Source of the DNA: Micromonospora chokoriensis
GTDB taxonomy: Bacteria > Actinomycetota > Actinomycetes > Mycobacteriales > Micromonosporaceae
Direction: 5' to 3'
DNA length: 64,000 nt
Assembly: GCF_000718555.1 (NCBI RefSeq)
Contig: NZ_JOAN01000007.1
Span: 162,197 to 226,196 of the forward strand
The position numbers and the translations under genes are program-made. Positions 44,778 through 59,050 of this stretch are shown here, piece after piece. The notes beneath the pieces are model-generated. The model saw only the letters and a list, made by a program, of their open reading frames with translations. It made no database searches and was not told the DNA's origin. The first letter of the stretch is position 1. Every line of letters begins with the position of its first letter.

Positions 44778-44839
44778 ATAAGTTGTGAGCTGCGTCCGGG
44801 TACCACGGCGGCATCCGGTTGACACGCGAGGAGCTGGTC

Positions 44840-45982
44840 ATGCAGTTCGGAGTCTTCACCGTCGGCGACGTCACGGTCGACCCGACCACCGGCCGGGAGC
44901 CGACCGAGCATGAGCGGATCAAGGCGATGGTGGCGATCGCGTTGAAGGCCGAAGAGGTCGGTCTGGACGTCTTCGCCACCGGCGAGCACCACAACCCGCC
45001 CTTCGTGCCGTCGTCACCGACCACCATGATGGGCCACATCGCGGCGCGTACCGAGCGTCTGCTGCTCTCCACCGCCACCACGCTGATCACCACCAACGAC
45101 CCGGTGAAGATCGCCGAGGACTACGCGATGCTCCAGCACCTGTCCGACGGTCGGGTAGACCTCATGATGGGCCGCGGCAACACCGGTCCGGTCTACCCGT
45201 GGTTCGGCAAGGACATCCGGGCCGGCATCCCCCTCGCCATCGAGAACTACGACCTGCTGCACCGGCTGTGGCGCGAGGACGTGGTCGACTGGAAGGGCAA
45301 GTACCGCACTCCGTTGCAGTCGTTCACCTCGACGCCGCGTCCGCTCGACGGGGTGCCCCCGTTCGTCTGGCACGGCTCGATCCGCAGCCCGGAGATCGCC
45401 GAGCAGGCCGCGTACTACGGCGACGGCTTCTTCGCCAACCACATCTTCTGGCCCAAGGAGCACACCCAGCGGATGGTCGCGCTCTACCGCCAGCGGTACG
45501 CCCACTACGGCCACGGCACCGCCGACCAGGCCATCGTCGGTCTGGGCGGGCAGGTGTTCATGCGACGCAACTCGCAGGACGCCGTCCGGGAGTTCCGTCC
45601 CTACTTCGACAACGCCCCGGTCTACGGGCACGGGCCGTCGCTGGAGGAGTTCACCCGGGAGACCCCGCTGACCGTGGGCAGCCCGCAGCAGGTCATCGAC
45701 CGCACCCTGGGCTTCCGGGAGTACGTCGGTGACTACCAGCGGCAGCTGTTCCTGATGGACCACGCGGGCTTGCCGCTGAAGACGGTGCTGGAGCAGCTCG
45801 ACCTGCTCGGCGAGGAGGTCGTGCCGGTGCTGCGCAAGGAGTTCGCCGCGCTGCGTCCGGCGCACGTGCCGGAGGCGCCCACGCACGCCTCGCTGGTCGC
45901 CGCCGCCGGCGGCGCCAAGGACAGCACCGTGCACGCCGTCGACGACGTGACGGGCAAGGCACCGGAGGGGGCGACCCGATGA
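44840..45982 (+). CDS. luciferase-like FMN-dependent monooxygenase (CE1758-type)
   Basis: 380 residues. A TIM-barrel LLM protein: MQFGVFTVGDVTVDPTTGRE, GLDVFATGEHHNPPFVPSSP, LDLMMGRG-type VDLMMGRGNTGPVYPWFGKD and SPEIAEQAAYYGDGFFANHI. It overlaps by 4 bp with a partner FMN reductase that should supply FMNH2. This is the arrangement known as the LLM/reductase duo (CE1758/CE1759 families). The substrate is unknown. ATG at 44840 has GAGGAGCTG upstream; the upstream TTG at 44819 would add 7 residues containing that site, so it is rejected. Confidence 0.88.
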   Translation: MQFGVFTVGDVTVDPTTGREPTEHERIKAMVAIALKAEEVGLDVFATGEHHNPPFVPSSPTTMMGHIAARTERLLLSTATTLITTNDPVKIAEDYAMLQHLSDGRVDLMMGRGNTGPVYPWFGKDIRAGIPLAIENYDLLHRLWREDVVDWKGKYRTPLQSFTSTPRPLDGVPPFVWHGSIRSPEIAEQAAYYGDGFFANHIFWPKEHTQRMVALYRQRYAHYGHGTADQAIVGLGGQVFMRRNSQDAVREFRPYFDNAPVYGHGPSLEEFTRETPLTVGSPQQVIDRTLGFREYVGDYQRQLFLMDHAGLPLKTVLEQLDLLGEEVVPVLRKEFAALRPAHVPEAPTHASLVAAAGGAKDSTVHAVDDVTGKAPEGATR

Positions 45983-46614
45983 CCCACCGCACCCTGGCCG
46001 TGGTCTCGGCGGGGCTGAGCCAGCCCTCGTCGACCCGGCTGCTCGCCGACCAGCTCGCCGCGGCAACCCGCGACGAGTTGGTCCGGCGCGGCTCCGAGGT
46101 GGAGCTGCACGTCGTCGACCTGCGGGAGTACGCCCACGACGTGGTGAACAACCTGCTCACCGGGTTTGCGCCAGCGGCGCTGCGCCAGGTCATCGACATG
46201 GTGACCGGGGCGGACGGGCTCATCGCCGTCACCCCGATCTTCAGCGCCTCGTACAACGGGCTCTTCAAGTCCTTCTTCGACGTGTTGGACAAGGAGTCGC
46301 TTGTCGACCGGCCGGTGCTGATCGGGGCCACCGGCGGCACCGCCCGGCACTCCCTCGCGCTGGAGCACGCGGTCCGCCCGATGTTCGCGTACCTGCGGTC
46401 GGTGGTGGTCCCGACCGCGGTCTTCGCCGCACCGGAGGACTGGTCCGATGGCAGCGCCGACGGCGCGCTTCGCGGTCGGATCCGGCGCGCCGCCGGGGAG
46501 CTGGCTGACCAGATCGAGCGCCGGCCACCGGCCACCGGGCCGGCCGACCCGTTCGCCCTCACCACCGACTTCCTGCAGATGCTCGGCCGAGGTAACGACG
46601 CGCCGGTCAGCTGA
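45979..46614 (+). CDS. NAD(P)H-dependent FMN reductase (CE1759-type)
   Basis: 211 residues. A flavodoxin-like fold with TLAVVSAGLSQPSSTRLLAD, VVDLREYAHDVVNNLL and GLIAVTPIFSASYNGLFKSF. It should reduce FMN for the monooxygenase it overlaps. Its last 8 bp overlap tail-to-tail with the stop of the universal stress protein gene on the other strand. Confidence 0.9.
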   Translation: MTHRTLAVVSAGLSQPSSTRLLADQLAAATRDELVRRGSEVELHVVDLREYAHDVVNNLLTGFAPAALRQVIDMVTGADGLIAVTPIFSASYNGLFKSFFDVLDKESLVDRPVLIGATGGTARHSLALEHAVRPMFAYLRSVVVPTAVFAAPEDWSDGSADGALRGRIRRAAGELADQIERRPPATGPADPFALTTDFLQMLGRGNDAPVS

Positions 46615-47479
46615 CCGGGTGGGCGACCAGCACCGGGCAGTGCGCGTGCTGGATCGCCGCCTGACTGACCGACCCGAGCAGCATCCCGGTGAACCCGGCC
46701 CGGCCCCGGGTGCCCACGACCAGCAACGACGCAGTGCCGCTGGCCTCGACGAGCCCTTGGGCCGCGCCGGCCGCCCAAACCGGATGCTCTCGCACCACCA
46801 GGTCCGGGTGCTCCGCGCGCACCACGGCGGAGGCGTCGGCCAGTAGCCGCACCGCCTCGGCCTGGTACGCGGCCTGCGACTCCTCGATCTCCTCCGGCAC
46901 CGTCCGGCCCCCGTCCGGCGGGCCGACGTGCACCAGCACCAACGGCACATCCCGCAGCGCCGCCTCGTCGGCGGCGTAGCCTGCGGCGAGCCGGGACGAC
47001 TCGGACCCGTCGACGCCGACGAGCACCGGGCCGTCCACCGGGATCGGCTGCTCGTCCGGGCGGACCACCAGCACCGGGCAGTGCGCGTGCGCGGCCACCT
47101 GCGCGCCGACCGAGCCGAGTAGCAGCCCGGCGAACCCGCCCAGCCCTCGACTGCCCACCACGACGAGGTCGGCCCGGCGGGACTCCTCGACCATGGTGAT
47201 GCCGGGACCGCCGGCGACCTGGCGGACCTCGACGACCAGGCCGGGCCACCGGTCGGCCAGCTCGGCCGCCGTACGCTCCAACATTTTCTGCGCCTCCTCG
47301 GAGGGAGCCGGCACCCCGAGGTCGTACGGGTTGAGCGGCACGCCGTAGCCGAGCGGGTGCAGGAAGCCGTGCACCAGGTGCAGCGGCCGGGACCGGAGCA
47401 GCGCGGCGCGGGCCGCGTGCTCGGCGGCGACGAGGCTGGACGGCGATCCGTCCACACCTACCACGACAGGTCGGTTCAT
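46607..47479 (-). CDS. universal stress protein, two UspA domains (copy 1)
   Basis: 290 residues. Two UspA domains in tandem (about 1-140 and 148-290), each beginning VVVGVDGSPSS or VLVGVDGSESS and ending in the ATP-binding G2xG9G(S/T): SRGLGGFAGLLLGSVGAQVA and TRGRAGFTGMLLGSVSQAAI. Such proteins bind ATP and are induced by hypoxia or starvation in mycobacteria. It lies in the putative hypoxia cluster. No clear GGGACC-type box is seen in its own 112-bp upstream gap, and a terminator separates it from the next USP gene. Confidence 0.92.
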   Translation of the reverse strand: MNRPVVVGVDGSPSSLVAAEHAARAALLRSRPLHLVHGFLHPLGYGVPLNPYDLGVPAPSEEAQKMLERTAAELADRWPGLVVEVRQVAGGPGITMVEESRRADLVVVGSRGLGGFAGLLLGSVGAQVAAHAHCPVLVVRPDEQPIPVDGPVLVGVDGSESSRLAAGYAADEAALRDVPLVLVHVGPPDGGRTVPEEIEESQAAYQAEAVRLLADASAVVRAEHPDLVVREHPVWAAGAAQGLVEASGTASLLVVGTRGRAGFTGMLLGSVSQAAIQHAHCPVLVAHPVS

Positions 47480-47548
47480 CGGGGCTCCCTGGGTTGGTCA
47501 GGTCATTGTCGACCGCGCACCCGCGCCGCGCCGCCGAACGCGCCGCAC

Positions 47549-47588
47549 CCCGTCCGCGCCGGCCAGGAGAGCGGCCGGCGCGGACGGG
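47549..47588. terminator. strong hairpin after the second universal stress gene
   Basis: CCCGTCCGCGCCGGCC (47549-47564) pairs perfectly over 16 bp with GGCCGGCGCGGACGGG (47573-47588), with an 8-nt loop. It lies 3 bp after the stop of the minus-strand USP gene at 47592. Confidence 0.75.
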
Positions 47589-47591
47589 CGT

Positions 47592-48482
47592 TCAGGCGTC
47601 TCGGCGGTGCCGGACGATCGCCAGCGGGCTGTGCGAGTGGTGCAGCACCGCGTGGCTCACCGAGCCGAGCAGAGCACCGGCGAGGGCGCCCCGGCCGTGT
47701 GCTCCGACCACGGTGAGCTGGGCGGTGGCGGACTGCTGCACCAGCACCCGCGCCGCCGCGCCGTACGCCACACACTGGCGTACCGGCACCTCGGGGTAGC
47801 GCTGCGACCAACCGGCCAGGGATTCGGCGAGCACCCGCTTCTCGTCGGCGGCCAGCGCGTCGACGTCGTACACCAGCGGCAGGATGTCGCCGGGGCCGCT
47901 CGGCGTGGGGGTGAGCCAGGCGTGCACGGCCACCAGGTCGGTGCCGCGCAGCGCGGCCTCCTCGAAGGCGAAAGCCAGAGCCTCGGTGGACAGGGCCGAG
48001 CCGTCGACGCCGACGAGCACCGGGCCGTCGGCGCGCGCCTCACCCTTGACCACCAGCACCGGGCACTCGGCGCGGGCGGAGACCTGCACGGCCACCGAGC
48101 CGATCAGCAACTCGGCGAAACCTCCCAGGCCCCGGCTGCCGAGCACCAGCAGCGCCGCGTCGCGGGATTCGCCCAGCAGCACCGGCGTGGCGGCGCCGTC
48201 GATCACCGCGCCGGTGACGACGAGCTCCGGCGCGGTCTTGCCGGCCTCGGTCACCGCCTCGGCGACGGTCAGCTCAGCCTGGTGGCGAAGCCCGGCGTCG
48301 ACGGGAGCGCCGGGCGCCGGAATCAGCGGTACGTCGTAGAGGGGCCAGATGAACGCGTGCACCACCCGCAGGGGGCGCTGCCGCACCGTCGCTTCCTGGG
48401 CGGCGACCCGCACCGCCTCCAGCGCCGAGGTCGAGCCGTCCACCGCCACCACAACGGGAGCACCGGATCTGATGGTCATCAT
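47592..48482 (-). CDS. universal stress protein, two UspA domains (copy 2)
   Basis: 296 residues. Two UspA domains: VVVAVDGSTSALEAVRVAAQ with SRGLGGFAELLIGSVAVQVS, then VLVGVDGSALSTEALAFAFE with AHGRGALAGALLGSVSHAVL. It is a diverged paralogue of the downstream USP. The ATG at 48482 follows AGGAGGAC; the adjacent ATG at 48479 is an alternative, and an ATG at 48494 leaves no ribosome site. A GGACCAACGGCCC site lies 75 bp upstream of the start. Confidence 0.92.
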   Translation of the reverse strand: MMTIRSGAPVVVAVDGSTSALEAVRVAAQEATVRQRPLRVVHAFIWPLYDVPLIPAPGAPVDAGLRHQAELTVAEAVTEAGKTAPELVVTGAVIDGAATPVLLGESRDAALLVLGSRGLGGFAELLIGSVAVQVSARAECPVLVVKGEARADGPVLVGVDGSALSTEALAFAFEEAALRGTDLVAVHAWLTPTPSGPGDILPLVYDVDALAADEKRVLAESLAGWSQRYPEVPVRQCVAYGAAARVLVQQSATAQLTVVGAHGRGALAGALLGSVSHAVLHHSHSPLAIVRHRRDA

Positions 48483-48556
48483 GTCCTCCTTCATCCGTCT
48501 TCATCCTCGTGCGAGGTGGGTCGGGCGGTCAGGGGCATATGGCAACGGACCGGGGG

Positions 48557-48569
48557 GCCGTTGGTCCTG
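48557..48569 (-). promoter_or_regulatory. DevR/OsdR-like box upstream of universal stress gene
   Basis: On the minus strand GGACCAACGGCCC, identical over 13 bp to the site before the P-type ATPase gene, 75 bp upstream of the start at 48482. Confidence 0.55.
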
Positions 48570-48576
48570 TCCCTCG

Positions 48577-51168
48577 TCACGCCGCGTCAGCGTCCCGGCG
48601 GGGCGATGCCAGCGACGGCCGGCGACGGGCCAGCCGCAGCATCAGCCCGGGCACGACGCTGACCGCCGCGCAGGCCAGCAGCACACTCGGCCCCAGCGGG
48701 TCGGTGCCGAGCAACTCCCGCAGCGGAGCGAACAGCACCCCACCGACCTGGAGCAGCGCCGACGCCGCCACCGCGACGAGGAGGCCGGGGTTGCGGTGTC
48801 GGGCCCCGGGCAGCCGGGGCGCTCGGACCGCCAGCGCCACACCGAGCTGGGCGAGCCCGAGCACCACGAAGACCACCGACTGCCACGGCAGGCCCCGATG
48901 TGCGGCGAACACGCCGGCGCCGAGTACCACGGCGGCGATCAGCGCGCCGGTGACCAGGACGTCCCGACCCAGCCCAGCGCCGAGCACCGACTCCTGGGGC
49001 GAGCGCGGCGGGCGGCGCAGGGTGCCGGGCTCGGCCGGCTCGGCACCGAGCGCCACGCCGGGCACCCCGTGGGTCAGCAGGTTGACCCAGAGGATCTGGG
49101 CGGGCAGCAGCGGTACGGCCAACCCGAACAGCGGGCCGGTCAGCATCACCATGATCTCCGCCACCCCACCGGCGAGGGCGTACCGCAGGAACCGGCGGAT
49201 GTTGTCGTAGATCCGGCGGCCCTCGCCGATCGCGGTGGCCACGGTGGACAGCTCGTCGTCGACCAGCACCAGGTCAGCGGCCTGCCGGGCGACCTCGGTG
49301 CCACTACCCATCGCCACCCCGATGTCGGCGCGCCGAAGCGCCGGGGCGTCGTTCACCCCGTCACCGGTCATCGCCACCACCTCGCCACGGGCCTGCAGGC
49401 CGGCGATGATGTCGAGCTTCTGTTCCGGCTGGGTCCGGGCGAAGACCCGGGTGTCCGGGTGCGCCGTCTGGTCGTCGTCGCCGCTGGCGAGGGGGTCGCC
49501 AACCCGCCAGAGGCCGAGCTGACCACCGATCGCCGCGGCCGTGGCCGGGTGGTCGCCGGTGATCAGCAGCAGCCGTACGCCGGCGGTGTCGAAGCTGTCG
49601 GCGATCTCCGGGGCGCCGACGCGCAGGGGGTCACCGACGGCGACCAGCCCCACCGGACGCAGCCCGGTGGGTGCGGCGAGGTTGGGCATCCGGTCCACCA
49701 GGGCGGCCGCGACGGCGAGCACCCGCAACCCGTCGGCCGCCAGCCGCCGCGCGGTGGTGGTCAGTTCGTCGATCTCCTCGGCGGTCGCGTCGACCAGCGG
49801 CGCGCCGAGGATGCTCTCGGGTGCGCCCTTGCAGACCACCAGGTAACGCTTGTCGCAGGAGCGGTGCACCGTGATCATCCGGCGTTGTGCCTGGTCGAAG
49901 GGGTGCTCAGCGACCCGGGGCCAAGCGGCGCGGGTGGGCTGCGGGTCGAGGCCGCACCGGGCCGCGAAGGCGACCAGGGCCGCTTCCAGGGGGTCACCGA
50001 CCGCAGCCCAGTCGGATCGCTCGTCGTCCGGCGGTGACAGGGCGGCGTCGTTGCAGAGCAGCCCGGCGCGCGCCAGTCGGCGTAGCCCTTCCGGTACGGC
50101 CACCGCCGTGCCGTCCCGGTGCACCCTGCCGTACGGGGCGTACCCGGTGCCGGTGATCCCATATCGGGCACCGTCGGACGTGACCACCTGCTGCACCGCC
50201 ATCCGGCCTTCGGTGAGGGTGCCGGTCTTGTCGGAGGCGATCACCGTCACCGAGCCGAGTGTTTCGACCGCGTGCAGTTGGCGCGGGATGGCGTGCGCGG
50301 CGGCCATCCGGCGCGCGCCGAGCGCGAGGGCCAGGGTCACCACGGCCGGCAGCGACTCGGGCACCGCCGCGACCACCAGGCTCACCGCGGTGATCGCCAT
50401 GTCCACCACCGGCCGGCCACCGACCACGCCGATGGCGAACACCAGCCCGGACAGGGCCACCGCGACCAACCCGAGCACCCGGCCCAGGGCAGAGAGCCGG
50501 CGCTGCAGTGGTGTGGTGGTGGGACGGGTGCCCGCCACCAGTGCGCTGATCCGGCCCAGGGCGCTCCCTGCTCCCGTGCGGAGCACGGTGCCGGCTGCCC
50601 GTCCGGTGGTGACGACCGTCCCGGCCAGCGCCTCCTCGCCGGGGATACGCCCCACCGTCACCGACTCACCGGTCAGCGCGGACTCGTCCAGGTGCAGCCG
50701 GCTCGCTTCGATCAGCAGCAGGTCGGCCGGCACGATGTCGCCTGCCTCGACGCGGACCAAATCGCCGGGGACGAGGTCGGCGGCGGGCACCGCCAGTTCC
50801 TGGCCGTCGCGCACCACCCGGGCGGCGGGCGCGGCGAGCCGGTCCAGAGCGGCGATCGCGCGGTCGGCGCGTACCTCCTGCACCACCCCGATGACGGTGT
50901 TCACCAGCACGACCAGGACGATCACCGCGGTGTCCGGGTAGTCGCCGAGCACCGTGGTGACGGCCGCCGCGGCAAGTAGAAGTGCCACCAGCGGGTCGGT
51001 GAACTGGTGCAGGACCCGTACGGCCAGGTGGTGGCGGGGTGGCGGGGCGACCGTGTTGGGGCCGGTGGCGCGCAGCCGGGCGGCGGCCTCTGCCGCGTCG
51101 AGCCCGACCGGCACGGCCAGGTCGACGGGGTCCTCCAGGATCCCGCCTCGTCCTCCGGTCGTCGTCAC
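48577..51168 (-). CDS. cation-transporting P-type ATPase (P2 type)
   Basis: 863 residues. N-terminal cation-ATPase domain, actuator motif LTGESVTV, M4 VAAVPESLPAVVTLALALGA, phosphorylation site DKTGTLTEGR, nucleotide-domain FDQAQRRMITV and KGAPES, hinge GDGVNDAPALRRADIGVAMG and about ten membrane spans. It resembles Ca/Mn-type pumps such as mycobacterial CtpF. M5 keeps the acidic residue (GGVAEIMVM), but M6 reads WVNLLTHGVPG, where Ca pumps have Asp in NLxTDG. The ion is therefore uncertain. GTG at 51168 has a GGGAGGTCAC site. A GGGACCAACGGCCC box lies 104 bp upstream. Confidence 0.92.
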   Translation of the reverse strand: MTTTGGRGGILEDPVDLAVPVGLDAAEAAARLRATGPNTVAPPPRHHLAVRVLHQFTDPLVALLLAAAAVTTVLGDYPDTAVIVLVVLVNTVIGVVQEVRADRAIAALDRLAAPAARVVRDGQELAVPAADLVPGDLVRVEAGDIVPADLLLIEASRLHLDESALTGESVTVGRIPGEEALAGTVVTTGRAAGTVLRTGAGSALGRISALVAGTRPTTTPLQRRLSALGRVLGLVAVALSGLVFAIGVVGGRPVVDMAITAVSLVVAAVPESLPAVVTLALALGARRMAAAHAIPRQLHAVETLGSVTVIASDKTGTLTEGRMAVQQVVTSDGARYGITGTGYAPYGRVHRDGTAVAVPEGLRRLARAGLLCNDAALSPPDDERSDWAAVGDPLEAALVAFAARCGLDPQPTRAAWPRVAEHPFDQAQRRMITVHRSCDKRYLVVCKGAPESILGAPLVDATAEEIDELTTTARRLAADGLRVLAVAAALVDRMPNLAAPTGLRPVGLVAVGDPLRVGAPEIADSFDTAGVRLLLITGDHPATAAAIGGQLGLWRVGDPLASGDDDQTAHPDTRVFARTQPEQKLDIIAGLQARGEVVAMTGDGVNDAPALRRADIGVAMGSGTEVARQAADLVLVDDELSTVATAIGEGRRIYDNIRRFLRYALAGGVAEIMVMLTGPLFGLAVPLLPAQILWVNLLTHGVPGVALGAEPAEPGTLRRPPRSPQESVLGAGLGRDVLVTGALIAAVVLGAGVFAAHRGLPWQSVVFVVLGLAQLGVALAVRAPRLPGARHRNPGLLVAVAASALLQVGGVLFAPLRELLGTDPLGPSVLLACAAVSVVPGLMLRLARRRPSLASPRRDADAA

Positions 51169-51271
51169 CCGTGACCTCCCCGTCTTGTGCGGCGTGTCGC
51201 CGGCACGCCGTCCCCTCCCACCATCGGGCTGTGCGATCGCGTCGGGCAGAGGCGTTGCGCCCGTGCGGCCC

Positions 51272-51285
51272 GGGACCAACGGCCC
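51272..51285 (-). promoter_or_regulatory. DevR/OsdR-like box upstream of the P-type ATPase gene
   Basis: GGGACCAACGGCCC; interrupted palindrome with GGGNCC-type arms, as bound by DevR/DosR-family response regulators. It is read on either strand. Confidence 0.55.
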
Positions 51286-51385
51286 TCGCGCCGGGTACCC
51301 GGGCGGCAGCGCACGCTTCGGCTCATGGCCGTGGCCGTCTCCCAGACATCGCGGTGCCGGCTGCTCGACCGGTACGGCTGCCGCG

Positions 51386-52171
51386 TCAGTAGACGGCCAG
51401 CCCTCGTTCGGCGAACTGCCCGCGGACCCGGGCCAGCAGCTCGGGGTTGGGCGGCTCGGTGTTGGCCAGTGGGAAGGTGAGGCCCAGTTCGGCGTACTTG
51501 TGTGCGCCGAGCCGGTGGAACGGCAGCACCTCGACCCGCTGCACGGTGGCCAGCCCGGCGGCGAAGTCGGCGACGCCCGCCACGTTCTGCACCGCGTCGG
51601 TCAGGCCGGGCACCAGCACGAACCGAATCCAGATCGGCGTGCCCCGCTGCGCCAGCCGGCGGCCGAAGCGCAGGGTCGGGCTGACCGACCCCGTCCGGGT
51701 GATCTGCCGGTACGTTGCCGGGTCCCACGACTTCACGTCCAGCAGCACCAGGTCGGTGGCGTCGAGCATGTCGTCGTCGGCGCGCACCCCGAGGAAGCCG
51801 GACGTGTCCAGCGCGGTGTGCAGACCGAGGTCGTGGCAGCGACGCAGCACCTCGCGGGTGAAGTGGGGTTGCTGCAGCGGCTCGCCGCCGCTGAGGGTCA
51901 CCCCGCCACCGGCGACGGTGATGAACCGTTGGTACCGCTCGATGTCCGCCATCAGTTCGTCCACGGTGCGGGTTCGACCACTGCGCCGATACCAGGTGTC
52001 CGGGCTGTGGCAGTAGCGGCAGCGCAGTGGGCAGCCGGCGAGGAACGCCACGAAGCGGACCCCCGGCCCGTCCACCCCCACGGAGATGTCCCACGAGTGC
52101 ACGCTCCCGACGGTTGGCGCGTCGGTCCGCCCGGGCCGGTGCCCGGGCGGCGGCGCCGGCCGCATGGTCAC
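51386..52171 (-). CDS. pflA: pyruvate formate-lyase activating enzyme (radical SAM)
   Basis: 261 residues. It cuts S-adenosylmethionine to place the glycyl radical on PflB. The iron-sulfur motif [14 protein letters not shown] (CxxxCxxC) is intact, followed by [17 protein letters not shown] and [12 protein letters not shown] at 52171 overlaps the pflB stop (GTGA), giving coupling; ATG at 52165 is possible and removes two residues. It is the last gene of the adh-pflB-pflA run. Confidence 0.93.
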
Positions 52172-54411
52172 AGCGAACCGTGGAAGGTACGCGACACCAC
52201 GTCGCGTTGTTGCTCGGGCGTGAGCCGGACGAAGTTCACCGCGTATCCGGAGACCCGCACGGTCAGCTGCGGGTAGCGCTCCGGGTGCGCCATCGCGTCG
52301 ACGAGGGTGGCCCGGTCCAGGACGTTGACGTTGAGGTGGAAGCCGCCCGCGTCGGTGTACCCGTCGAGCACCCCGGCTAGGTTGTCGATGCGCTCCTGGC
52401 GGGTACGTCCCAACCCGTCGGGGGTGACCGTGCCGGTCAGCGAGATTCCGTCCCGGGCGGCGTCGTAGGGCAGCTTCGCCACCGACAGCGCCGCCGCGAC
52501 CAGGCCGTGGGTGTCTCGCCCGTTCATCGGGTTCGCCCCGGGGGCGAAGGGCTCGCCAGCGCGCCGGCCGTCCGGGGTGTTGCCGGTGTGCTTGCCGTAC
52601 ACCACGTTCGAGGTGATGGTGAGCACCGACATGGTCAGCTCGGCGTCGCGGTAGGTGCGCTGCCGGCGCAACTTCGCCGCAAACGCTTCGGTCAGCCACA
52701 CGGCGATGGCGTCGGCCCGGTCGTCGTTGTTGCCGTACGTGGGGGGCGCACCCTCCAGGACGTAGTCGACCGCGAGGCCGGTGGCGTCGCGCAGCACCGT
52801 GACCCGGCCGTGGCGGATCGCGGCGAGGCTGTCCACCGCCACCGACAGGCCGGCGATGCCGGTGGCCATGAACCGGCGCACCGGGTGGTCGTGCAGCGCC
52901 ATCTCCAGCCGTTCGTACGCGTACCGGTCGTGCTGGTGGTGGATCACGTTCAGGGCGTCGACGTACGTCTCGGCGAGCCAGTCCAGCGTCCGGTCGTACG
53001 CGGCCAGCACGGTGTCGTAGTCGAGGACCTCGCCGTCCACTGGTGGTGTGGCCGGGGCGATCTGTTCGCCGGTCAGCTCGTCGCGACCGCCGTTGATCGC
53101 GTAGAGCAGCGCCTTCGCCAGGTTCGCCCGTGCTCCGAAGAACTGCATGTCCCGGCCGACCCGCAGGGCCGACACGCAGCAGGCGATGGCCGTGTCGTCG
53201 TCGTACGCCGGGCGGATCAGCTCGTCGTTCTCGTACTGGATGGCGCTGGTGTCCAGCGACACCTGCGCGCAGAACCGCTTGAAGCCGGCGGGCAGCCGCG
53301 GCGACCAGAGCACGGTCAGGTTGGGCTCCGGGGCCGGACCCAGGTTGTAGAGGGTCTGTAGGTAGCGGAAGCTGGTGCGGGTGACCAGCGGACGCCCGTC
53401 CGCGCCCATCCCGCCGAGCGCCTCGGTGACCCAGGTGGGGTCGCCGGAGAAGAGTTCGTCGTACTCCGGGGTGCGCAGGAACCGGATGATCCGCAGCTTG
53501 ATCACGAAGTCGTCGATCAGCTCCTGGGCCTCCATCTCGGTCAGCCGCCCCTCGGAGAGGTCCCGCCGCAGGTAGACGTCGAGGAACGTGGCGGTGCGCC
53601 CGAGCGACATCGCCGCGCCGTTCTGTTCCTTGGTGGCGGCGAGGTACGCGAAGTACAACCACTGGATCGCCTCCCGGCCGGTCGTGGCCGGTCCGGAGAT
53701 GTCGTGGCCGTAGCTCGCGGCCATCCGCTTCAGCTCGCCCAGGGCCCGGATCTGCTCGGCCAGTTCCTCCCGGTCGCGGATCACGTGGTCGGTCGACGGA
53801 CGATCGTCGAGTGCCTCCTTGATCGCCCGTCGTTCGGTGACCAGCCGGTCCACGCCGTAGAGCGAGACCCGGCGGTAGTCGCCGATGATCCGACCCCGGC
53901 CGTACGAGTCGGGCAGACCGGTGATGACGTGCGAGCGCCGCGCGGCGAGCACGTCGGCCGGGTACGCGTCGAACACCGCGTCGTTGTGTGTCTTGCGGTA
54001 TTCGGTGAAGATCTGGTGCACACCCGGGTCGGGTTGGTACCCGTACGCCCGCAGTGCGGTCTCCACCATCCGCAGGCCGCCGTTCGGCACGATGGCCCGG
54101 CGCAGTGGCGCGTCGGTCTGCAGGCCGACGATGAGCTCCTTCTCCCGGTCGATCCAGCCGGGGGCGTGCGCGGTGATCGTCGACGGGGTGGCGGTGTCGA
54201 CGTCGAGGACCCCGCGTCGACGCTCCTCGACGAAGAGCTTCGCCAGCCTGCCCCAGACCTCCAGGGTGCGGCAGGTCGGCCCGGTGAGGAAGCCGCCGTC
54301 GCCGGTGTACGGCTCGTGGTTGGCCTGGATGAAGTCGGCGACGTCGATGGTGTCCTGCCACGTCGCGTGGGTGAAACCACGCCAGGGTGCGCGGGGTGCG
54401 GTGTCTAACAT
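52168..54411 (-). CDS. pflB: formate C-acetyltransferase (pyruvate formate-lyase)
   Basis: 747 residues. It splits pyruvate with CoA into acetyl-CoA and formate without oxygen. The adjacent active-site cysteines are in [20 protein letters not shown], and the glycyl radical site is Gly722 in [18 protein letters not shown]-terminal [20 protein letters not shown] is also typical. Cys-Cys and the close activase favour true PFL over other glycyl radical enzymes. This implies fermentative or hypoxic metabolism in an otherwise aerobic lineage. ATG at 54411; the gap to adh is 44 bp. Confidence 0.95.
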
Positions 54412-54455
54412 GGCTGCTCCGGTGCGAGCGCTCGGGGGTGATGGTCGGACGGCGG

Positions 54456-55466
54456 TCATGGCTGGAGAACCAGACGGGCGGTGACCCGGCCGGCGAGGAC
54501 GTCCTCGACCGCCGTGTTGATCTCGTCGAGCTTGCGGATCTCGTAGGCGACCCGGGTGCGGCCGGCGGCGTGCAGCCGGAACACCTCGGCGAGGTCGGCG
54601 CGGGTGCCGACGATCGAGCCGACCACCGTGATCCCCTTCAGCACCGTCTCGAAGACCGGCAGGTTGATCGTGTTCTCCTTGGGCAGCGATACCAGCACGA
54701 GGCGCCCGCCGCGACGCAGGCACCGGTACGCCTGCTCGATCACGGTGGGGTTCGCGGCGAGGACGATCGCCACGTCCGCGCCACCGAGGCGGGTGATCGC
54801 CTCGACCGGGTCGACCTGGGCGGCGTTCACGGTGTGCGTGGCGCCGAGCGCGGTGGCCAGGGCGAGCTTCTCGGCGGTGACGTCGACGGCGATGGTCTCG
54901 CCGCCGAAGAGTTGCGCGTACTGCTGCGCGAGGTGGCCGAGACCGCCGATGCCGAAGATCGCCACCCGGTGGCCGGGGCGTACCCCGGCCACCTTCACGG
55001 CCTTGTACGTGGTGACCCCGGCGCAGGTCAACGGTGCTGCCTCGAACGGATCGACACCCTCGGGTACGCGTACCGCGTAACGGGCGGCGGTGACGGCGTA
55101 CTCCGCGTGCGCGCCGTCGATGCTGTAGCCGGTGTTGCGCTGCGACTCGCAGAGGGTCTCCCAGCCGGTCACGCAGTAGGAGCAGGTGCCGCAGGCCCAG
55201 CCGAGCCAGGGCAGGGCCACCCGGTCGCCGACGGCGTGTTCGGTGACGCCGGGGCCGACCCGATCCACGATGCCGACGCCCTCGTGGCCGGGCACGAACG
55301 GCGGGTTCGGCCGGACCGGCCAGTCGCCGCGGGCGGCGTGGATGTCGGTGTGGCACAGCCCACTCGCCTCGATCCGGACCAGCATCTCGCCGGGGCCGGG
55401 TTCTGGCACGGGCAGGTCGAGCAGCTCCAGTGGACGGTCGAACGCAGTGACGACTGTTGCGCGCAT
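54456..55466 (-). CDS. zinc-dependent alcohol dehydrogenase (AdhP type)
   Basis: 336 residues. Catalytic zinc ligands are in [10 protein letters not shown] and PGHEGVGIV, structural zinc cysteines in [18 protein letters not shown], and NAD-binding [14 protein letters not shown]. This is the AdhP-like class, which reduces acetaldehyde to ethanol or oxidises simple alcohols. It is co-directional with pflB and pflA and probably leads their operon. A GGGACCAAAGTC box lies 90 bp upstream. Ethanol production from acetyl-CoA would also need an acetaldehyde dehydrogenase, not seen here. Confidence 0.92.
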
Positions 55467-55555
55467 CGGGGGCCTCCTGTGTCGTTTCTTCGCTTCCAGG
55501 ACCAGCCTGGGCTGCGGTGCCGGACCGGGGCAGGGGCACGAGACCGCGATCGGTC

Positions 55556-55569
55556 GGGACCAAAGTCAC
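55556..55569 (-). promoter_or_regulatory. DevR/OsdR-like box upstream of adh-pflB-pflA
   Basis: GGGACCAAAGTCAC, preceded by GGTC; close to the mycobacterial GGGACTWWAGTCCC. It lies in the 317-bp gene-free stretch 55467-55783, which otherwise holds only the terminator at its far end. Confidence 0.5.
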
Positions 55570-55740
55570 GGATATGAGCTGGCCATCCTCACCGCGGCGG
55601 CCGCTGAGCCACACCCGTCGGTCCCGACCCGCGCGCGACAACCAGGAAGGGGCGGTGGCCTTCACCTTCATTTGGCGGCCTCTCCCTGCGCGGCACCGCC
55701 CGCCGCCGCGCTGGCGGTCGGCCGTCAACGACTGAGCCAG

Positions 55741-55783
55741 GCACGGTCCGCCGGGGTCGCTGGCCGAACCCGGCGGCCCGTGC
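55741..55783. terminator. hairpin after the ppdK operon
   Basis: GCACGGTCCGCCGGG pairs with CCCGGCGGCCCGTGC with a single mismatch, ending directly at the stop codon of the gene at 55784. Confidence 0.65.
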
Positions 55784-56236
55784 TCAGCGTTCGACGACCA
55801 GTCGGCGGGCCCGCAGCGCCCGCGCCCACCACGGGCGCGGTGTCGCCGGGCGTAGCGCTGGCGCGCGGACGCCTCGCAGGCTGACCCAGCCGCCCGGCCC
55901 CATCGTCACCGCGCCGATAGCCGGCGGCCTGCGGCGGCCGACCACGGCGACGGCCGCGGTGAGCACCGCGACCGCGAACGCGCCGGTCGCCGCGGCGAGC
56001 AACCGGTCCGGGTCGGTCACCGGCCGGTAGCGGACCCGCCCGCCGGAGAGGACGTAAGCCCCTATCGCCCGGCCGTCACGGACCACCGGCACCAGCGCGG
56101 CCGCCGGTGTTCCCGGCAGTTCCAGCACCGGGCCCACCGGCCCCTCGGTGATCGGCGCGGTCGGCGGTTCGGGCACCCGTCGGGGCGTGGGTGGGCTCAG
56201 CGGTACGGCGCTGGTCGGGTTGAGGATGGCGGTCAT
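55784..56236 (-). CDS. small single-span membrane protein, unknown
   Basis: 150 residues. A proline-rich N-terminus ([20 protein letters not shown]) is followed by a beta-rich part ([20 protein letters not shown]), one membrane span (about 86-105, [18 protein letters not shown]) and a basic tail. No family is recognised. An AGGAGG site 7 nt before the ATG overlaps the ppdK stop, so it is translated from the same message and may share its regulation. Confidence 0.7.
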
Positions 56237-56247
56237 GGTGCTGCCTC

Positions 56248-58908
56248 CTAGCGGGAGTCGGACGTAGCAGTGGTGGCGTACACGGCGGCCTGTCCGGCGG
56301 CCAACCGGGCGATCGGCACCCGGTACGGCGAGCAGGAGACGTAGTCCACGCCGGCGTCGGCGAAGAACGCGATCGAGTCGGGGTCGCCGCCGTGCTCGCC
56401 GCAGACCCCGATGGTGAGTTCCGGTTGGGCCGCCCGACCCTCGGCGACGGCCAGCCGCACCAGGCGGCCCACGCCGACGGGGTCGATGCGCTCGAACGGA
56501 GACAGCTCGAAGATCCCCCGCTCCAGGTAGGCGTCGAAGAACGAGCCCTCCACGTCGTCGCGGGAGAACGCCCACGCGGTCTGGGTCAGGTCATTGGTGC
56601 CGAAGGAGAAGAAGTGCGCCGCGCCGGCGATCTCCCCGGCGGTCAGCGCCGCCCTCGGCACCTCGATCATCGTGCCGAGGGGGATCTCCGGCGCGTCGGG
56701 CACCCCGGCGAGGACCGGTTCGATCTCGGCGCGCACCGCCCGGAGTTCCCGCACGTCGCCGACCAACGGCACCATGATCTCCGGACGCGGGTCGCCGCCG
56801 TCGCCCAACCGCTGCGCCGCGGCCTCGGCGATCGCCCTGACCTGCATCGCGAACAGTCCCGGGATCACCAGCCCGAGCCGCACCCCGCGCAGCCCGAGCA
56901 TCGGGTTGGCCTCGTGCATTCGGCGTACGGCCGTCAGCAGCCGGCCGTCCCGGCCCAGGTCCTCGCCGAGTGCCTCGGCGCGGGCCACCCGTGCGGTCAG
57001 CTCGTGCAACGGGGGGAGAAACTCGTGCAGCGGGGGGTCGATCAGGCGGATCGTCACCGGTAGCCCGTCCATCGCGGTCAGGATCTCCACGAAGTCGGCC
57101 CGCTGCAACGGCAACAACGCGTCCAACGCGGCGCTCACCTCGTCCGGCCCGTCGGCCAGGATCAGCCGTTCGATCAGCTCCCGACGCTCGCCGAGGAACA
57201 TGTGCTCGGTGCGGCACAGCCCGACGCCGGTGGCACCGAGGCGTCGTGCCCGCCGGGCGTCCGCCCCGGTGTCCGCGTTGGCCCGTACGCCCAGTCGGCG
57301 CACCGCGTCGGCGTGCCCGAGCAGCCGGTGCACCGCCGCGACCAGCGGGTCGGCCTGCGGCTGCAGTTCACCGGCCAGGTAGCGGGCGACCGGGGAGGGC
57401 TGCACCGGCAACTCGCCGAGGTAGACCTTTCCGGTGGTCCCGTCGATGGAGATCACCTCGCCGGCCCGGACGACCCGGTCGCCGACGGTGAACTCGCCGC
57501 GCTCGGCGTCGATGCGCAGCTCGTCCGCGCCGCAGACGCAGGTACGCCCCATGCCCCGGGCCACCACAGCGGCGTGCGAGGTCTTGCCGCCGCGCGAGGT
57601 GAGCACCCCCGCCGCGGCGATCATGCCGGGCAGGTCGTCCGGGTTGGTCTCCCGGCGGACCAGGATCACCGGTCCGTCCGCCGCCTCGGCGGCTGCCGAG
57701 TCGAAGACGACGCGGCCCACCGCGGCGCCGGGGGAGGCGCCGAGGCCGACGGCCAACGGTCGTGCCGCGCCGGCCAGGTCGAACGCGGGGAACATCAGCT
57801 GGGCCAACTGGGCGCCGGTGACCCGGTGCAGCGCCTCGTCCAGCGTGATCAGCCCTTCGTCGACCAGCTGCGCGGCGATCACGAACGCCGCCGCTGCCGT
57901 CCGCTTGCCCACCCGGGTCTGCAACATCCAGAGCCGCCCCCGCTCGATGGTGAACTCGATATCGCACAGGTCCCGGTAGTGCCGCTCCAACGTCGCCATG
58001 ATCTCGAGCAGTCGGCGGTAACTCGCCGGGTCGATGCGCGCCAGCTCGGGTAGGCCGACCGTGTTGCGGATGCCGGCCACCACGTCCTCACCCTGGGCGT
58101 TGGCGAGGTAGTCGCCGTACACGCCGGGCGTGCCAGTGGCCGGGTCGCGGGTGAACGCCACACCGGTGCCGGAGTCCGGGCCGAGGTTGCCGAAGACCAT
58201 TGCCATCACGTTGACCGCCGTGCCCAGGTCGTCCGGGATGTGCTCCTGGTGGCGGTACAACCGTGCCCGCTGGGAGTTCCACGACTCGAACACCGACCGG
58301 ATGGCCAGGTAGAGCTGCTCGTGCGGGGCCTGCGGAAAGTCGTGCCCCACCCACGCGGCGAAGATCTTCTTGTACGTCTCCACCAGGTCGCGCAACTGCT
58401 CGGCGTTGGGCCCGGCCGGCCCGGCCGTCGCGCGCAGGGCCTCAAGCTCCCGTTCGAACTCCTCCGCTGGCAGCCCGTGCACCGTTCGGCCGAACATCTG
58501 GATCAACCGTCGGTACGAGTCCCAGGCGAACCGGGCGTCACCGCTGTGCGCCGCGAGCCCGCCGACCGTGGTGTCGTTGAGCCCGATGTCCAGGACCGTG
58601 TCCATCATCCCCGGCATCGAGTACCGCCCACCGGAACGGACCGCCAGCAGCAGCGGGTCGCGCGGGTCGCCGAGCCGGCGGTCCAGTCGCGCCTCCACAT
58701 CCCGCAAATGCGCGTTGACCTCGGCGAAAAGCCCGTCCGGCGGTGCGCCGGTCACCAGGTACGCCCGGCAGGCGTCGGTGCTGATGGTGAACCCCGGCGG
58801 CACCGGCAACCCCAGCCTCGTCATCTCGCTCAGGTTCGCGCCCTTGCCGCCCAGCAGGTCGGCCCTGCCCCGGTCACCCTCGATGAAGTCGTAGACGTAC
58901 TTGGGCAT
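56248..58908 (-). CDS. ppdK: pyruvate, phosphate dikinase
   Basis: 886 residues. It interconverts pyruvate + ATP + Pi and PEP + AMP + PPi. N-terminal ATP-grasp: GGKGANLSEMTRLGLPVPPG and RSGGRYSMPGMMDTVLDIGL. The phospho-His is in TSRGGKTSHAAVVARGMGRT (about residue 450). The C-terminal PEP/pyruvate barrel has TEHMFL, FFSFGTNDLTQTAWAF and catalytic Cys in GVCGEHGGDP. PPDK can save ATP or make PEP under low-energy conditions. ATG at 58908 has GGAGGCCGGAG upstream; a GGGCCAGAGGTCCC box lies 97 bp before it. Confidence 0.95.
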   Translation of the reverse strand: MPKYVYDFIEGDRGRADLLGGKGANLSEMTRLGLPVPPGFTISTDACRAYLVTGAPPDGLFAEVNAHLRDVEARLDRRLGDPRDPLLLAVRSGGRYSMPGMMDTVLDIGLNDTTVGGLAAHSGDARFAWDSYRRLIQMFGRTVHGLPAEEFERELEALRATAGPAGPNAEQLRDLVETYKKIFAAWVGHDFPQAPHEQLYLAIRSVFESWNSQRARLYRHQEHIPDDLGTAVNVMAMVFGNLGPDSGTGVAFTRDPATGTPGVYGDYLANAQGEDVVAGIRNTVGLPELARIDPASYRRLLEIMATLERHYRDLCDIEFTIERGRLWMLQTRVGKRTAAAAFVIAAQLVDEGLITLDEALHRVTGAQLAQLMFPAFDLAGAARPLAVGLGASPGAAVGRVVFDSAAAEAADGPVILVRRETNPDDLPGMIAAAGVLTSRGGKTSHAAVVARGMGRTCVCGADELRIDAERGEFTVGDRVVRAGEVISIDGTTGKVYLGELPVQPSPVARYLAGELQPQADPLVAAVHRLLGHADAVRRLGVRANADTGADARRARRLGATGVGLCRTEHMFLGERRELIERLILADGPDEVSAALDALLPLQRADFVEILTAMDGLPVTIRLIDPPLHEFLPPLHELTARVARAEALGEDLGRDGRLLTAVRRMHEANPMLGLRGVRLGLVIPGLFAMQVRAIAEAAAQRLGDGGDPRPEIMVPLVGDVRELRAVRAEIEPVLAGVPDAPEIPLGTMIEVPRAALTAGEIAGAAHFFSFGTNDLTQTAWAFSRDDVEGSFFDAYLERGIFELSPFERIDPVGVGRLVRLAVAEGRAAQPELTIGVCGEHGGDPDSIAFFADAGVDYVSCSPYRVPIARLAAGQAAVYATTATSDSR

Positions 58909-59004
58909 GGCTCCGGCCTCCACTTCCGTTCACCGCACGGACCTCTCCATCTGTTCGTACCAATGTGGGGAGGGCTGTCGGCAGGGCCGGACGGTACGGT
59001 CGGA

Positions 59005-59018
59005 GGGCCAGAGGTCCC
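59005..59018 (-). promoter_or_regulatory. DevR/OsdR-like box upstream of ppdK
   Basis: GGGCCAGAGGTCCC, an almost perfect interrupted palindrome (GGGNCC arms). It lies between ppdK and the divergent acetyltransferase gene. Confidence 0.55.
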
Positions 59019-59050
59019 GCACTGTCACAGCCCGTGCGTACCCTCGGCGG

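Follow-up and report, generated by a model that had tools for sequence, protein, structure and literature searches.

The boxes that precede a group of stress and fermentation genes in Micromonospora chokoriensis are very probably sites of a DevR/OsdR-type regulator encoded on a second contig (C8), through which it would drive a low-oxygen programme from two loci. Taken together, the boxes, their conservation and the regulator, kinase and targets found on C8 point to an OsdR/DevR regulon in Micromonospora whose genes are divided between two loci. The first locus lies in the window (the whole 64,000-nucleotide stretch analysed, G000:C7:162197-226196 in a draft genome of 6.97 Mb) and comprises the following features:

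46607..47479, minus strand: USP1, tandem universal stress protein (Pfam Usp, two stretches)
47592..48494, minus strand: USP2, tandem universal stress protein (Pfam Usp)
48554..48569, no strand: DevR/OsdR-type box before USP2 (9.1 bits, rank 9 of 63,985)
48577..51168, minus strand: cation P-type ATPase (Pfam E1-E2_ATPase, Cation_ATPase_N/C; putative GTG start)
51271..51286, no strand: box before the P-type ATPase (14.1 bits, rank 1 of 63,985)
51386..52165, minus strand: PflA, PFL-activating radical SAM enzyme (TIGR02493, 292 bits, cut-off 231.75)
52168..54411, minus strand: PflB, pyruvate formate-lyase (TIGR01255, 1114.6, cut-off 994.2)
54456..55466, minus strand: zinc alcohol dehydrogenase (Pfam ADH_N, ADH_zinc_N; AdhP 343.7, cut-off 344)
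55555..55570, no strand: weak box before adh (1.9 bits, rank 176 of 63,985)
55784..56239, minus strand: small conserved protein between adh and ppdK (longer frame scanned, no Pfam family)
56248..58908, minus strand: accessory pyruvate, phosphate dikinase, PPDK (TIGR01828, 1182.3, cut-off 843.45)
58983..58998, no strand: second ppdK box (8.8 bits, 21 bases from the first)
59004..59019, no strand: first ppdK box (8.4 bits, rank 13 of 63,985)

A sequence-only reading of the window had named these genes, and its identities stood for the universal stress proteins, the P-type ATPase, the PFL and the PPDK; the alcohol dehydrogenase, which leads the adh-pflB-pflA unit, fell just under the AdhP cut-off, and "CtpF-like" proved a loose label for the pump, because the latter scored above the cut-off of the general P-type model and below every ion-specific NCBIfam cut-off. 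USP1 lacks a box and is probably cotranscribed with USP2; among relatives, a box upstream of USP1 was rare (2/17). The small conserved protein also adjoins ppdK in relatives, and a second, housekeeping ppdK copy is located at G000:C9:2863-5535. Next to USP1, the window encodes a luciferase-like monooxygenase and an FMN reductase (44819-46614), the latter adjoining USP1 in many sister species, yet without a box. Direct reading of the sequence confirmed the four palindromes at the places given earlier (16-base sites 48554-48569, 51271-51286, 55555-55570 and 59004-59019), and the USP and ATPase sites do share 13 identical bases (GGACCAACGGCCC). Distances of 75 to 104 bp to the start codons had been claimed; with the gene starts used here, box starts lay 75 (USP2) and 104 bases (adh) upstream as claimed, but 115 and 111 bases upstream for the ATPase and ppdK, respectively.

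PflB matched Escherichia coli PFL (1h16) with 1003 bits over its full length and retained the Cys-Cys pair and the glycyl-radical motif RVSGY; with a dedicated activase alongside, it has the sequence hallmarks of a PFL1, and the enzyme and its activase both look intact in this genome. All 101 aligned PFLs keep the catalytic Cys, Cys and Gly. Among the best 80 of 585 matches, the closest named pflB came from Micromonospora haikouensis (88%). The island genes scanned (Pfam, NCBIfam) included no acetaldehyde dehydrogenase, so the ethanol route is incomplete in the island, and acetate formation via acetyl-CoA or acetyl phosphate seems more likely than ethanol formation.

The window holds no DevR-type relative at E ≤ 1e-20 (21 occur in the genome), consistent with the earlier observation that it lacks a devR/devS-like pair. 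The DevR orthologue is encoded on C8 (G000:C8:127749-128384); its best solved relative was DevR of Mycobacterium tuberculosis (3c3w, 248.8 bits, residues 1-208), with which it shares an identical EKTVKNYVS in the DNA-binding domain, and the next best regulator in the genome matched the orthologue at 142 bits (self-match, 433). Convergent with devR, at a distance of 15 bases, lies the gene for a GAF-HisKA_3 kinase whose GAF domain was best matched by DosT and DevS (183 and 167 bits). This GAF domain keeps the HPPM histidine, which by counting along the alignment would correspond to the proximal haem ligand (His149 in DosS, His147 in DosT; PMC4082495); a haem-binding GAF domain is therefore predicted from sequence, and the DevS/DosT-like kinase is the likely partner of DevR. 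A longer kinase frame of 894 aa was rejected because its upstream part belongs to a second nitroreductase-family gene. Around the NarL-type response regulator and the GAF-HisKA_3 kinase, Pfam and NCBIfam scans of this C8 locus (L037, L038) identified universal stress proteins, a nitroreductase-family protein, a phosphoketolase (XFP_N, 560 bits), an Rv3131/Acg-family FMN oxidoreductase (NF047509, 309 bits, cut-off 199) and a haemerythrin-domain P-type ATPase of the heavy-metal type. The spacer between devR and the Rv3131-type gene contains boxes of 15.5 and 10.7 bits upstream of devR, giving the orthologue a box of its own in the same genome. The box at L037:14003-14018 overlaps the end of a USP frame, but a reading of it as misplaced was rejected because it lies 92 bases before the phosphoketolase start. 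What had been proposed as a compact anaerobic-survival module is supported as a regulon, but is one of two unlinked parts rather than self-contained, with the regulator pair on C8; in one relative (G092) the island and devR are ∼0.74 Mb apart on a single contig.

A genuine regulon whose main signal is stress or development instead of low oxygen, with PFL rarely active, is possible if unlikely. OsdR has been linked to development and stress in Streptomyces coelicolor, and a study of Streptomyces lividans describes induction of the corresponding gene group during secretion of a foreign protein, a role of hypoxia that its authors could not confirm, and an activase listed as a pseudogene fragment (PMC6302529). 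Against this stand the haem-ligand histidine predicted in the kinase, a PflA and a PflB that appear intact and the catalytic residues kept throughout the aligned PFLs. It is improbable that the boxes are real and read by another NarL/LuxR-type regulator, with DevR limited to the C8 locus: the genome offers 21 regulators of this type and DevR binding in the window is a prediction, but the 16-base box of the window ATPase is identical to that before the C8 phosphoketolase, devR has boxes of its own, the motif corresponds to the OsdR one, and the second-best regulator stands well apart from DevR.

To score the boxes, a symmetric matrix was derived from the 26 published OsdR sites of S. coelicolor (PMC5069765, Table 1; mostly predictions, part of them EMSA-tested) and from no others, which avoids circularity. 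This independent matrix placed the ATPase, USP2 and ppdK boxes first, ninth and 13th in the window and the adh-pfl box 176th, so that the proposed DevR/DosR/OsdR form held for the first three and is weak locally for the last. On its own the matrix is unspecific, because 14 window positions reached at least 8 bits where 11.9 per 64 kb were expected from a first-order simulation. Nor did the box patterns exceed their reversed controls genome-wide (65 strand-matches of GGGACNNNNGNCCC versus 181; 49 places with GGGMCSNNSGKCCC versus 172). Grouping was nevertheless striking among the GGGACNNNNGNCCC places, with two in the island of the window and four on a 9.5-kb stretch of C8. Boxes stood before USP, nitroreductase and devR-like genes and the pfl unit, as the sequence-only reading had anticipated.

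It is fixed position and conservation, not sequence alone, that decide the case. Across 101 genomes of the genus (pflB in 29, this one included; devR in 91), the comparison took in 20 pflB loci (28 exist outside this genome) and 20 devR loci (of 90), the best matrix score in the 250 bases upstream of each gene being counted if at least 8 bits. Window promoters reached this score in 13/15 (USP2), 9/9 (ATPase), 5/9 (adh) and 15/15 (ppdK) sister species; devR and the Rv3131-type gene did so in 17/20 each, two counts that are not independent because most loci have one common spacer. Inside-gene controls gave 0 (USP2), 0 (ATPase), 0 (adh), 4 of 15 (ppdK), 0 (devR) and 1 (Rv3131-type), and of 200 permuted symmetric matrices 0, 0, 0, 1, 0 and 0, in the same order, reached the observed median. 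Sister species are related, so these counts are not independent events; even so, the predicted conservation was far above both controls, and in alignments the boxes formed islands of identity amid diverged promoters. Boxes of at least 8 bits were absent upstream of PflA (0/20), the FMN reductase (0/13), DevS (0/20) and the first and second C8 USPs (0/2 and 0/18), and were found in 4/20 loci for PflB, 1/16 for the small protein, 1/16 for the C8 ATPase-haemerythrin and 6/20 for the second nitroreductase, so that a box before either of these last two genes is doubtful. The phosphoketolase promoter carried one in 14 of 17 usable loci (19 matched, two of them cut off; the 17 include this genome and L145, a pflB locus). 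Conserved DevR-type palindromes are present in the promoters, then, with the adh site weak in this genome: it is degenerate (1.9 bits) both here and in the nearest relative, and in 8/9 relatives the best adh site lies at -97 to -104, the same place as the weak local box. Where pflB has no adh before it (11 loci in the genus), a box of at least 8 bits occurred within 300 bases in four, one of them at -285. Because the local site is weak, the case for pfl leans more on relatives and on published co-expression in Streptomyces. That the boxes are chance G+C-rich palindromes would suit the window count and the missing genome-wide excess, but is very improbable given their fixed position and conservation, matched by 0-1 of 200 permuted matrices, and given that a box of at least 8 bits stood upstream of none of the 13 housekeeping ppdK paralogues; for USP2, the ATPase and ppdK it is already hard to hold. 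Control by Rex or an FNR-type regulator instead is the least credible alternative, since, with patterns taken to represent their sites, Rex-like matches were at chance (8 versus 8.6) and the FNR-like matches, in excess with two mismatches allowed (9 in the window versus 2.2 in shuffles), lay outside the four promoters, one overlapping the USP2 start. The nine FNR-like places may reflect codon usage.

The promoters share a two-part layout. The second ppdK box starts 21 bases downstream of the first (58983 and 59004 here), and this offset averaged 4.5 bits over 16 loci versus -20 over all offsets; a scan of all offsets gave a clear peak for ppdK only (+21), and with all promoters pooled the offsets -9 and +9, which overlap the strong box, scored about as high as +21. 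The USP2, ATPase and adh promoters have a half-box rather than a full box in the downstream position. Its pattern, G[CG]C[CT]CTG[AC]C, was picked after viewing the promoter alignments and has a background of one per 12,214 bases and strand; it begins 31-33 bases away from the strong-box start in 13/16, 6/10 and 9/10 loci, respectively, and in 11/16 for ppdK. M. tuberculosis promoters have been described with a high-affinity DevR site and an adjacent low-affinity one, the proximal site lying over the -35 element (PMC3029386), and the pairing seen here, of a strong box with a full or half box some two helical turns further downstream, appears to fit this layout. The half-box may be occupied by DevR, or may alternatively be a core promoter element.

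The ppdK paralogues and the patchy occurrence of pfl provide internal comparisons. A ppdK was found in all 101 genomes and, as judged by eye from the matches, the window type (at least 80% identity) in 30, two of them partial. Twenty-two genomes had both pflB and this accessory ppdK, seven pflB only, eight ppdK only and 64 neither (Fisher P = 4.6e-10, uncorrected for relatedness); two of the seven pflB-only genomes carry a 73% ppdK copy. In seven of the eight pfl-less genomes with an accessory ppdK this copy was compared, and a box of at least 8 bits preceded it in five of the seven. Five of these seven have the ATPase, USP2 and USP1 beside ppdK (one also adh), a sixth has only the USPs, and the seventh lies on a short contig. 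The pfl genes, present in 29/101 genomes, are accessory and, since pfl-less genomes keep the rest of the island, form a cassette within this island of DevR type. Before the housekeeping ppdK copy (L177-L187, L195, L196), a TGTGCC..TGTCACC-like element is conserved at about -175 to -184; it ranks first or second by score in 12/13 loci and looks like the site of another regulator. Three genus loci (L143, L144, L145) carry a different pflB lineage (80-82%), which groups with Actinoplanes and Pseudosporangium and lacks the USP-ATPase island; L145 also has, in the same stretch as pflB, a phosphoketolase relative with an 18.8-bit box.

Among the best 80 of 585 pflB loci, 24 had a match to a dormancy-type gene within ∼10 kb, and eight had a devR relative of 59-66% within 10 kb of pflB (a ninth, L091, 33%). 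The best box within 350 bases of pflB reached at least 8 bits in 14/24 dormancy-neighbour loci versus 7/56 of the rest (P = 1.2e-4, uncorrected for relatedness). A simpler palindrome score of at least 13 was reached in 20/33 mycelial-type actinomycetes (shuffles, 16%), 8/25 other Actinomycetota (11%) and 0/22 others (2%). DevR relatives at E ≤ 1e-40 were found in 23/23 Actinomycetota and 2/7 other genomes tried, though several of the 23 match at just 40-52% and may not be orthologues. In a tree of 101 PFLs, 21 dormancy-neighbour loci (hand-marked from the 24, with L058, L091 and L113 omitted as weak) fell in one clade of 46 (support 0.97), which also includes loci without dormancy neighbours; some inner nodes have near-zero support. 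DevR-like palindromes also occur some 100 to 160 bases upstream of pflB in Cellulomonas-type and Cryobacterium loci outside any recognised dormancy cluster (L062, L063, L065, L070, L083, L084), and PFL may therefore be under DevR-type control more widely.

Under the low-oxygen reading, a fall in oxygen (or a rise in NO) would lead the haem-GAF kinase to phosphorylate DevR, which would bind the strong box and cooperatively help occupancy of the second box or half-box ∼21-23 bases downstream. DevR would then switch on the USPs, the ion pump, the accessory PPDK and adh-pflBA, and on C8 act on itself, the Rv3131-type nitroreductase and the phosphoketolase, the outcome being an energy-saving programme for oxygen-starved mycelium. 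Metabolic flux through PFL and phosphoketolase would yield acetyl-CoA and acetyl phosphate, and PPDK would be able to use pyrophosphate. More broadly, and with about even chances of being right, mycelial actinomycetes supposed to be strict aerobes may have joined a modular fermentation and energy-saving cassette (PFL with its activase, its own PPDK paralogue, ADH, and phosphoketolase at the regulator locus) to the old DevR dormancy switch, gaining and losing it in a DevR-controlled island whose promoters combine a strong box with a weaker site in phase with it. The regulon proposed here would bring the dormancy switch of mycobacteria and Streptomyces into Micromonospora, a genus of antibiotic producers, and points to likely carbon-metabolism targets of its DevR. 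The presence or absence of the pfl cassette among sister species, and the contrast between a ppdK with a box and one without, offer a natural experiment in soil bacteria for probing how DevR controls an oxygen-sensitive fermentation enzyme.

Among the literature matches listed, in which subscription journals are thinly covered, there was no paper on a Micromonospora DevR/DosR/OsdR regulon; one review (PMC7464533) contains Micromonospora and DevR/DosR/OsdR words. A single paper mentions pyruvate formate-lyase together with OsdR. The system resembles the M. tuberculosis DevR/DosR regulon in the regulator over its full length, the predicted haem-ligand histidine of the sensor GAF domain, the Rv3131-type nitroreductase adjoining devR, the USPs and a strong site with a neighbouring weak one (PMC3029386). 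It differs in a more G+C-rich box and in having PFL, the accessory PPDK and phosphoketolase among its putative targets. To our knowledge, the mycobacterial regulon has no PFL. Closer still is the OsdR-OsdK regulon of S. coelicolor and S. lividans (PMC5069765, PMC6302529), with the same box type, a regulator with its own box and USP, PPDK, nitroreductase and ADH (there cotranscribed with a USP) as targets in common. The S. coelicolor table gives boxes before osdR, USPs, PPDK and nitroreductase (PMC5069765), and PFL (SCO0206), PPDK (SCO0208), ADH (SCO0199), USPs and nitroreductase are reported as co-expressed with osdR in S. lividans (PMC6302529), so the kind of regulon is already known. In the Streptomyces sources, however, the regulon occupies one chromosomal region around osdR and osdR-osdK is an operon, whereas M. 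chokoriensis has two unlinked loci and a convergent devR/devS; the word phosphoketolase is absent from PMC6302529, and PflA, listed as a pseudogene fragment in S. lividans, appears intact in M. chokoriensis. New features are the genus, the division between two loci, phosphoketolase as a putative target, and a PFL whose activase appears intact alongside it.
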